From NCBI RefSeq assembly GCF_024282095.1, contig NZ_JAMWZS010000030.1:1-37625 (forward strand): DNA of 37,625 nt, read 5' to 3'. Origin of the DNA: Nitrosomonas sp. (GTDB lineage: Bacteria; Pseudomonadota; Gammaproteobacteria; Burkholderiales; Nitrosomonadaceae). The translations under genes and the position numbers were made by a program. Shown here piece after piece: positions 29,327-30,637 of the stretch; positions within the stretch are counted from its first letter, which is position 1; each line of letters begins with the position of its first letter. The notes beneath the pieces were generated by a model. The model was not told where the DNA came from. It saw only the letters and a list, made by a program, of their open reading frames with translations, and ran no database searches.

Positions 29327-30577
29327 ATGTCCAAAATTTTCATTAATTACCGCCGCGATGATAGCGCAGCCCATGCTGGCCGTTTGTATGATCGGTTAGA
29401 GAGCCATTTTGGCCATGGCGTTATCTTTATGGACATAGACCAGATTGAACCAGGGGAAGATTTCATTGAAGTCATCCAACAAAAACTGGAAGCCGTACAA
29501 GTTGCTGTTGTTCTGATCGGAAAGCATTGGCTGGATATCACCGATGCTGCCGGGCAACGGCGCTTGGATAATCCGGATGATTTTGTGCGTCTTGAGATTG
29601 CCACCTTGTTGGAACGAAAAATACGCGTAATCCCGGTTTTGGTAGGCGGAGCTGTTGTACCCCAATCGTCGCAGTTACCCGAATGCCTGGCGCCACTGGC
29701 ACGGCGCCATGCTTATGAAATCAGCGACCTTCGATTCCGAGCGGATGTCGATAAGTTCATTCAAATATTGGAAAAAGTTTTGAGTGCAAAGACGGCTTCG
29801 CTACCGTCGGTGCAATCAAATCTTTCCGGTATTGAGCGGTCCATTGAAACAAGACTTTCCTTCGAACCCGAAATGGTGCGTATACCACCCGGAAAATTCC
29901 TGATGGGATCGCATGAGACCGAATTCGGTCGAGATACTAGAGAAGGCCCACAGCATGAAGTTACCATTGCTTACGCGTTCGAAATCGGCAAATACGTGGT
30001 GACGTTTGACGAGTATGATGCATTTGTCAAAGCAACCAATCGACGATTGCCGGATGATGTAGGTTGGGGGCGGGGCAGGCGGCCTGTCATCAACGTTTCG
30101 TTCGAAGATGCACAACACTATGTGCAATGGTTGTCGCAACAAACCGGCAAGCAATACCGCCTGCCGACCGAAGCGGAATGGGAATACGCTGCCCGTGCGG
30201 GTACGCAAACTGCGTACTGGTGGGGGTCGGACATCGGGAAAAACAATGCAAACTGCTATGCTTGTGGCAGTGAATGGGATTACAAACAAACTGCGCCGGT
30301 AGGCTCGTTTAAACCGAATGCCTTCGGGCTTTATGATATCGCCGGCAATGTGTGGGAATGGGTAGAGGATTGCTGGCATGACAATTACCTGAATGCACCA
30401 ACGGATGGATCAGCCTGGAAGGAAGCCAATGGCGGAGATTGTAAGCGCCGGGTGGTTCGGGGCGGTTCGTGGCTCAACGATCCGCAGTTCCTGCGGTCGG
30501 CTAGCCGTGTCAGGTACTACACCGATGTAGCCAGCGACGGCCTGGGTTTTCGTATCGCCAGGGCTTTGCGACTTTGA
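29327..30577 (+). CDS. TIR domain fused to an FGE/C-type-lectin-fold domain; likely DGR target
   Basis: 416 residues. The N-terminal TIR domain (about 1-150) has KIFINYRRDDSAAHAGRLYD, FMDIDQIEPGEDF and DDFVRLEIATLL; Glu90 in VRLEI is the position of the catalytic Glu of NAD-cleaving TIRs. After a linker, a formylglycine-generating-enzyme-type domain (about 180-416) shows MVRIPPGKFLMGS, YRLPTEAEWEYAARAG, FGLYDIAGNVWEWVEDCW and RRVVRGGSW. The two Cys that follow RGGS in active FGEs are absent (SWLNDPQFLRS), so it is probably a binding module rather than an enzyme. The last 35 residues resemble the variable region of diversity-generating retroelement targets. No signal peptide, so cytoplasmic. 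The ribosome site is weak. Neighbours are unrelated. Confidence 0.9.
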   Translation: MSKIFINYRRDDSAAHAGRLYDRLESHFGHGVIFMDIDQIEPGEDFIEVIQQKLEAVQVAVVLIGKHWLDITDAAGQRRLDNPDDFVRLEIATLLERKIRVIPVLVGGAVVPQSSQLPECLAPLARRHAYEISDLRFRADVDKFIQILEKVLSAKTASLPSVQSNLSGIERSIETRLSFEPEMVRIPPGKFLMGSHETEFGRDTREGPQHEVTIAYAFEIGKYVVTFDEYDAFVKATNRRLPDDVGWGRGRRPVINVSFEDAQHYVQWLSQQTGKQYRLPTEAEWEYAARAGTQTAYWWGSDIGKNNANCYACGSEWDYKQTAPVGSFKPNAFGLYDIAGNVWEWVEDCWHDNYLNAPTDGSAWKEANGGDCKRRVVRGGSWLNDPQFLRSASRVRYYTDVASDGLGFRIARALRL

Positions 30578-30600
30578 TCTTTGTGCTTTGACCCTTTGCG
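30452..30600 (+). other. Putative DGR variable region at the 3' end of the TIR-FGE gene
   Basis: The last codons read RGGSW-L-N-D-PQ-F-LRSA-S-R-V-R-Y-Y-TD-V-A-S-D-G-LGFRIAR. Residues at the set-off positions align with the Asn positions of the known DGR pattern RSANRNRNN...NNNLGFR. The codons there are CTC, AAC, GAT, TTC, AGC, GTC, TAC, TAC, AGC, GAC and GGC: all end in C or T, as expected if adenines 1 and 2 of AAC/AAT were randomised. GTA (30527-30529) does not fit. Pyrimidine-rich CTTTG repeats follow the stop. No template copy is present in the window. Confidence 0.6.
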
Positions 30601-30604
30601 GGGT

Positions 30605-30637
30605 GCAGGGGCGTAGCCCCTGCGGATTTGTTTTTTT
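30605..30637 (+). terminator. GC-rich hairpin with T-tract after the TIR-FGE gene
   Basis: GCAGGGGC (30605-30612), loop GTA, GCCCCTGC (30616-30623): a perfect 8-bp stem, 28 nt after the stop codon, followed by a run of seven Ts (about 30631-30637). It would work as a Rho-independent terminator. A short GC hairpin at this place is also the typical cruciform found just downstream of DGR variable regions, so both roles are possible. Confidence 0.65.

Follow-up and report, generated by a model that had tools for sequence, protein, structure and literature searches.

A TIR-FGE gene of Nitrosomonas whose 3' repeat appears to have been rewritten in trans by a distant diversity-generating retroelement

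Background

Targets of diversity-generating retroelements (DGRs) that are diversified in trans have been described in Thiohalocapsa PB-PSB1 by the same criterion that is used here (PMC10907252, PNAS 2024). Here we analyse a comparable case in Nitrosomonas sp., a gene that encodes a TIR domain followed by an FGE-sulfatase (FGE) domain and ends in a repeat resembling a DGR template elsewhere in the genome. It lies in a stretch of 37,625 nucleotides, hereafter the window, which makes up one entire contig, C80; the genome (G000, assembly GCF_024282095.1) comprises 81 contigs and 2.80 Mb. The Nitrosomonas element has a layout like that of the Thiohalocapsa PB-PSB1 one (clade 5A layout), where a MoxR-like ATPase neighbours a long target, whose N-terminal extension is unassigned, and a short lectin-only target, and the same paper records TIR domains among DGR targets and their neighbours and names Nitrosomonas as having multiple related DGRs (PMC10907252). 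Unlike in Thiohalocapsa PB-PSB1, the distant target here is a two-domain TIR-FGE gene whose neighbours are fixed and of housekeeping type, and its register lends itself to comparison between species that have the reverse transcriptase (RT) and species that do not; conversely, trans action in Thiohalocapsa PB-PSB1 is backed by population data, whereas the present case is known from genome sequences alone (PMC10907252).

The remote variable proteins of cyanobacteria are also distant C-type-lectin targets with a variable repeat (VR) at the 3' end, and TIR-like N-terminal domains have been reported for them (PMC7517822, BMC Genomics 2020). They were called at a VR nucleotide identity of at least 50%, whereas the agreement described here is exact at non-adenine sites and concerns a different phylum (PMC7517822). 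FGS domains and DGRs have been placed in conflict systems (PMC7159879, eLife 2020), a DGR survey states that remote targets would escape detection (PMC8144416, Nat Commun 2021), and the accessible part of PMC10053308 (2023) contains nothing on TIR. In the literature that we found, trans DGR action had been argued within single genomes, and a search made mostly without subscription papers and without supplements returned no description of this Nitrosomonas TIR-FGE gene. Thus, trans-acting DGRs and TIR-bearing targets are already published; added here are the comparison across species at one site and a two-form TIR-FGE family.

The variable repeat and its template

A stretch of 116 nt near the end of the FGE domain's coding sequence (VR3; Table 1) is very probably a variable repeat of a DGR acting in trans. 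A search of the genome's own DNA with VR3 gave, apart from one chance-level 23-nt match, three other strong copies, each of them on contig C68. The three are the template repeat (TR) and two variable repeats, VR1 and VR2, of targets adjacent to it. VR3 and the TR align without gaps over 116 nt each, and all 16 mismatches fall on TR adenines, which occupy 31 of the 116 positions (hypergeometric P = 1.7e-11); the remaining 85 positions are identical. By codon position eight mismatches are first, seven second and one third. The local repeats obey the same rule, with 21/21 mismatches on adenines in VR2 and 23/23 in VR1 (the latter with one 1-nt gap). A scan of the genome with adenines of the TR written as N and up to 3 mismatches allowed recovered only the TR, VR2 and VR3, with 0 mismatches each, and the reversed pattern gave no match; VR1 was not recovered because of its deletion.

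The sequence-only reading had predicted from the window that the gene ends in a DGR variable region, and had asked for an adenine-differing second copy near a DGR-type RT gene; that copy is now located, with an RT gene beside it, so that the lack of both which would have told against the prediction is not what the genome shows, and the region proves to begin six bases upstream of 30452, where it had been placed. It had also counted 11 of 12 compared positions as ending in C or T. This pattern holds, and the count becomes 11 of the 11 AAC/AAT codons of the TR (residues 383, 384, 385, 388, 393, 395, 397, 398, 403, 404 and 405). From the TR some 3.3e16 protein variants are encodable, and a stop codon is reachable from none of the mutable codons.

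Many FGE relatives end in RGGSW...LRSA.R...GFR and vary in between; hence a protein-level pattern alone proves nothing, and the gene might be an ordinary FGE-family protein with a naturally variable pocket loop, its DGR likeness being family likeness. The adenine rule, together with the presence of a template in this very genome, refutes this, leaving it next to no credence. Repeats within one genome are also generally known to convert each other, so that VR3 might stem from a non-mutagenic gene conversion from the TR or a VR, with ordinary substitution thereafter; ordinary substitution would not hit adenines 16 times out of 16, and this account too is refuted and hardly credible. As for conversion from VR1 or VR2, VR3 still holds adenine at eight sites from which it is gone in both local repeats, which rules them out and identifies the TR as the source.

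Three FGE targets with a common repeat and hairpin stem in one genome might further suggest that a local target was recently duplicated, VR included, to give the TIR-FGE gene, and that trans rewriting is unneeded. Directly upstream of the repeat, the window gene is only 78% identical to the nearest local paralogue (VP1), with mismatches spread over all four bases (A 37, G 34, C 29, T 26), and the chance of 85 identical non-adenine positions at such flank-like divergence is about 6e-10. These figures rule out recent duplication unless the repeat alone moved. Moreover, other species have a TIR-FGE gene with its own repeat at the same site, and VR3 retains the template adenines lost from both local VRs; we regard duplication as highly improbable. 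The evidence instead favours rewriting in trans of the repeat alone. Of the 85 non-adenine positions, VR3 shares all 85 with its own TR and 82, 82, 77 and 72 with the TRs of four relatives, which, with the 78% upstream identity, points to recent overwriting from the template of its own genome.

Variability, measured as entropy across 11 TIR-FGE proteins, is concentrated in the TR-adenine codons, in keeping with the earlier expectation of variation in codons of this kind, here in a comparison between species. Both the entropy and the underlying alignment rest on intact members: 15 loci were screened for a TIR-FGE open reading frame by a start-motif pattern and ten were aligned with the window protein, leaving out three with no frame (L185, L188, L195) and two whose frame does not end in the repeat (L187, L200).

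Table 1. Coordinates of the features discussed, in the window unless a contig is named
Feature	Position	Strand	Basis or remark
TIR-FGE gene, remote DGR target (VP3)	29327..30577	+	416 aa; Pfam and alignment of 11 family members
TIR domain	29327..29776	+	residues 1-150, N-terminal
Glu90 codon	29594..29596	+	aligns with the SARM1 Glu in VHKEIV; invariant in 11/11 aligned TIR-FGE
FGE-sulfatase domain (C-type-lectin fold)	29864..30562	+	Pfam; bears the variable repeat
Variable repeat VR3, 116 nt	30446..30561	+	16/16 differences from the C68 TR at TR adenines
Mutable core of VR3	30473..30541	+	residues 383-405; 16/17 codons with TR adenine in position 1 or 2
GGCTTT.../CTTTG-rich tract	30562..30604	+	behind VR3, start still coding; similar tract behind other VRs
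8-bp perfect hairpin, 3-nt loop	30605..30623	+	stem GCAGGGGC / GCCCCTGC
L,D-transpeptidase (YkuD) with LysM	27783..28994	-	left neighbour, fixed flank
Sodium/bile-acid-symporter-family (SBF) transporter	30707..31744	+	right neighbour, fixed flank
Template repeat TR	C68:162818-162933		between RT and VP2; only TR found in genome

The element on contig C68

The genes of C68:156000-170000 (L015) run in the order AAA ATPase, VP1 (with VR1), Avd, RT, TR and VP2 (with VR2). The only RVT_1 match of the genome (E up to 0.001) lies here between Avd and the TR (Pfam 6.3e-19). Its closest PDB relative is 8ub7 (2.6e-44; next best 7.6e-18), the DGR RT of a Bordetella phage. The NCBIfam result for this RT contains no DGR-specific RT model, and PADLOC gives many generic RT models. 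Avd matches NCBIfam DivGenRetAVD (3.2e-27, 94.9 bits against a cut-off of 80) and Pfam bAvd (2.2e-16, 60.7 against a cut-off of 40); by sequence it has no PDB relative at E 0.1. The reading frames of both RT and Avd are open. The sequence-only reading had noted neither RT nor template in the window and had concluded that the machinery would have to act from elsewhere in the genome; both statements agree with these locations, and even if C80 and C68 adjoined, contig positions would set the element at least about 29 kb from the window gene. In all five genomes with a TR the RT frame extends 59 nt into it (L015:6818-6934; G006, G009, G022, G039). The first half of the TR thus doubles as coding sequence of the RT tail in another frame, with the RT stop codon inside the TR.

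VP1 is a 1103-aa target with an FGE domain in its C-terminal part, and VP2 a second FGE-domain target. Kyte-Doolittle hydropathy gives several hydrophobic segments in VP1, one in VP2 that might be a signal peptide (the start codon of VP2 being uncertain) and none in VP3, suggesting that one template serves three places in the cell. The adjoining ATPase matches AAA/AAA_5, and its PADLOC matches are weak; among the six proteins of the C68 locus that were scanned, part of the neighbourhood, none matched the vWA or VMAP family, whose members accompany a MoxR-like ATPase in the MoxR/vWA/VMAP ternary conflict system. Elsewhere in the genome (C75:1014-15075) three more FGE-domain open reading frames are clustered (764-964 aa frames), with no template-like repeat at the thresholds used.

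Domains and predicted structure of the target

The window protein matches Pfam FGE-sulfatase (2.3e-60) and TIR_2 (6.7e-12), and its closest named relatives are Nitrosomonas records. It combines a TIR fold with a glutamate aligned to that of the VHKEIV motif of SARM1, presumably the catalytic E642, and carries its VR, as known DGR targets do, at the 3' end of a C-type-lectin-fold gene. The predicted model (50 input sequences, mean predicted local distance difference test (pLDDT) 90.9) resembles both the SARM1 TIR domain and TvpA (PDB 2y3c), the latter over the FGE part only (residues 176-414); an earlier, poor model from 11 close sequences (mean pLDDT 47.3) was dropped. TvpA of Treponema denticola is itself a DGR variable protein, from which VP3 differs by the TIR domain in front. 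The likeness to TIR NADase effectors (SARM1 TIR, Thoeris ThsB) lies in the TIR part, where PADLOC reports a partial ThsB match and nothing else on the protein; neither the SARM1 nor the Thoeris system is known to include a hypervariable FGE domain. Of the related PvdO and formylglycine-generating enzymes, the latter have a cysteine pair (CHESYC in the 5nxl alignment) with a copper role. The position of this pair coincides with the mutable segment of VP3, where the pair is absent: the protein has cysteines only at residues 120, 310, 313, 349 and 372 and none within 373-416. Hence, its FGE domain probably acts as a scaffold for binding, without enzyme activity.

Nitrosomonas genomes compared

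Matches to the VR3 region occur in 25 of 85 Nitrosomonas genomes, at 59 or more places, with up to nine candidates scored per genome. Among the matches listed a TR is present in five genomes (G000, G006, G009, G022, G039), each time overlapping the end of its cognate RT, while the other 20 have VR-like repeats and no TR. The ten local VRs of the five RT-bearing genomes place 172 of 174 mismatches to their own TR on adenines. G022 has no TIR-FGE match. No cognate RT was found in nine of the ten other genomes with a full TIR-FGE gene in the alignment; in G072 a single RT-like match, 28% identical, is present. In relatives where no RT was found the TIR-FGE repeat appears to be frozen, and the target seems to outlive its diversifier. 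Two adjacent FGE targets, separated by neither an Avd nor an RT match, are present in G020 (a single-contig genome; L179) and, as a pair on one contig, in G008, G032, G040, G064 and G132 (L184, L193, L194, L204, L206); here, too, the diversifier seems to be gone and the targets to remain.

In G008, which is 97% complete, two VRs on different contigs (L184, L212) agree at 85/85 non-adenine sites, and neither an RT (E up to 1e-6) nor an Avd was found, a pattern that fits a recent loss or a gap in the assembly. G039 (C1:523177-524623), G011, G019 and G033 have RT matches of a further lineage, which is more distant (35-38% identity) and in G039 adjoins another Avd match on the opposite strand. Matches spanning TIR and FGE also occur in cyanobacterial records and in a Hyphomicrobiales metagenome-assembled genome (L076, L110, L122, L129).

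Several observations weigh against the reading of VR3 and its gene proposed here. The distant repeats of three other RT-bearing genomes do not keep register with the TR of their own genome: mismatches fall on adenines in 19/28 cases in G039, 20/31 in G009, and 12/29 and 8/12 in G006 (both G006 alignments being partial), and non-adenine mismatches amount to 9/84, 11/84, 17/54 and 4/31, respectively. Recent trans rewriting is therefore not general in the genus, and the window's distant repeat is the only one in exact register among the RT-bearing genomes compared. VR1 (L015:5105-5219) has a 1-nt deletion relative to the TR that shifts the frame of the VP1 C-terminus, which could mean that the element misfires or is in decay, or else that the assembly is wrong at this point. 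By the criteria given below, a hairpin like that behind VR3 is missing behind 6 of the 10 local VRs of the RT-bearing genomes (6 of 8 in the four relatives), and the six genes next to the target in the window, three per side, are of housekeeping type with no PADLOC family match. Finally, the support comes from genome sequences, with activity today lying outside them, and the ligand, the TIR activity and a role in defence are argued from homology.

These observations bear on two alternatives. The first, which is compatible with trans rewriting and concerns present activity, is that VR3 is a frozen relic, once rewritten by an element that no longer acts. The frame-shifted VR1, the out-of-register repeats of G039, G009 and G006 and the failure to find a cognate RT in nine of ten other TIR-FGE genomes favour it; the open frames of RT and Avd beside an extant TR speak against it, as does the count of 0/85 non-adenine differences, which leaves little time since rewriting in comparison with the counts in the RT-bearing relatives. 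We consider a relic unlikely, if by no means far-fetched. The second alternative concerns the hairpin. The earlier reading had described a CTTTG-rich sequence and a perfect 8-bp GC hairpin behind the variable region as the layout of a homing site. Both are present, and the genome has three occurrences of the exact hairpin pattern, GCAGGGGCGNAGCCCCTGC, one behind every VR; neither the tract nor a comparable hairpin (perfect stem of at least 6, loop of 3-5, at least 5 G+C per arm, within 110 nt) stands behind any of the five TRs. Given its absence from the local VRs noted above, the hairpin was rejected as a mark of every VR in RT-bearing genomes, and it is not a general homing-site mark in this group. 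It could instead be an ordinary intrinsic terminator outside the homing site, as the T-rich stretch after its GC stem and that same absence would suggest; its three occurrences, each behind a VR, and the lack of such a hairpin behind the TRs argue otherwise, and we hold the terminator to be a serious possibility somewhat short of an even chance.

Chromosomal site and two forms of the gene

In the window genome, G005, G008, G016, G040 and G064 the TIR-FGE gene has the same flank on either side; in G031, G067 and G128 it adjoins the left one. G052 has both flanks, at 93 and 89% DNA identity, with no TIR-FGE gene between them, and both flanks are likewise present with no TIR-FGE gene in G022 and G132; the gene is thus an accessory one at a fixed site. 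The gene in the G052 interval was read as a relative of a methyltransferase present there in G132. In the window the flanks that align with G052 end at 29039 and begin again at 30760, which delimits the differing stretch (29040-30742). The housekeeping-type neighbours give no sign of a defence island at this site; no PADLOC family, such as that of the Thoeris partner ThsA, is matched by these six genes, the rest of the window and genome not having been searched for ThsA.

A hydrophobic segment separates TIR and FGE in six of the 11 aligned members (L186, L190, L191, L192, L197, L202), giving the form TIR-TM-FGE (TM, the membrane segment), and is lacking in the other five, the window protein included. 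Four membrane forms (G005, G016, G040, G064) occupy the same site as the window gene. The TIR-TM-FGE layout is like that of a Toll-like receptor turned end to end.

Proposed mechanism and implications

From DGR biology we infer that TR RNA would be copied by an RT-Avd complex with errors at adenines, and that the complementary DNA would take the place of the TIR-FGE gene's 3' end, with the 3' end that the repeats have in common, and perhaps the hairpin behind it, as a guide. Up to 17 residues could be changed in this way, around the place that the active-site cysteine pair occupies in a true FGE, and the cell may thereby change what the TIR-FGE protein recognises. As to function, we tentatively suggest, with slightly less than even confidence, that the cytoplasmic FGE domain senses a changing ligand, such as a phage or other foreign molecule, and that binding activates the N-terminal TIR domain, probably as an NADase or a maker of a nucleotide signal. 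A wider proposal, which we put forward as rather doubtful, is that Nitrosomonas keeps a family of immune receptors with two domains, TIR and hypervariable FGE, and in some members a membrane segment between them; a single DGR would reshuffle their ligand site in trans, and the site would be frozen once that DGR is lost.

With one gene at one site in species with an RT and in species where none was found, sequence comparison can put to the test homing in trans, how far it reaches and how it is lost. If the TIR domain is active, the gene would be a small, single-gene means by which ammonia oxidisers, a group important in wastewater treatment and nitrogen cycling, link anticipatory variation of a receptor to an effector of immune type. 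If the wider proposal is true, species devoid of the RT would preserve receptor specificities as fossils, and a single template would equip one cell with a cytoplasmic sensor, a membrane sensor and one that is possibly exported.
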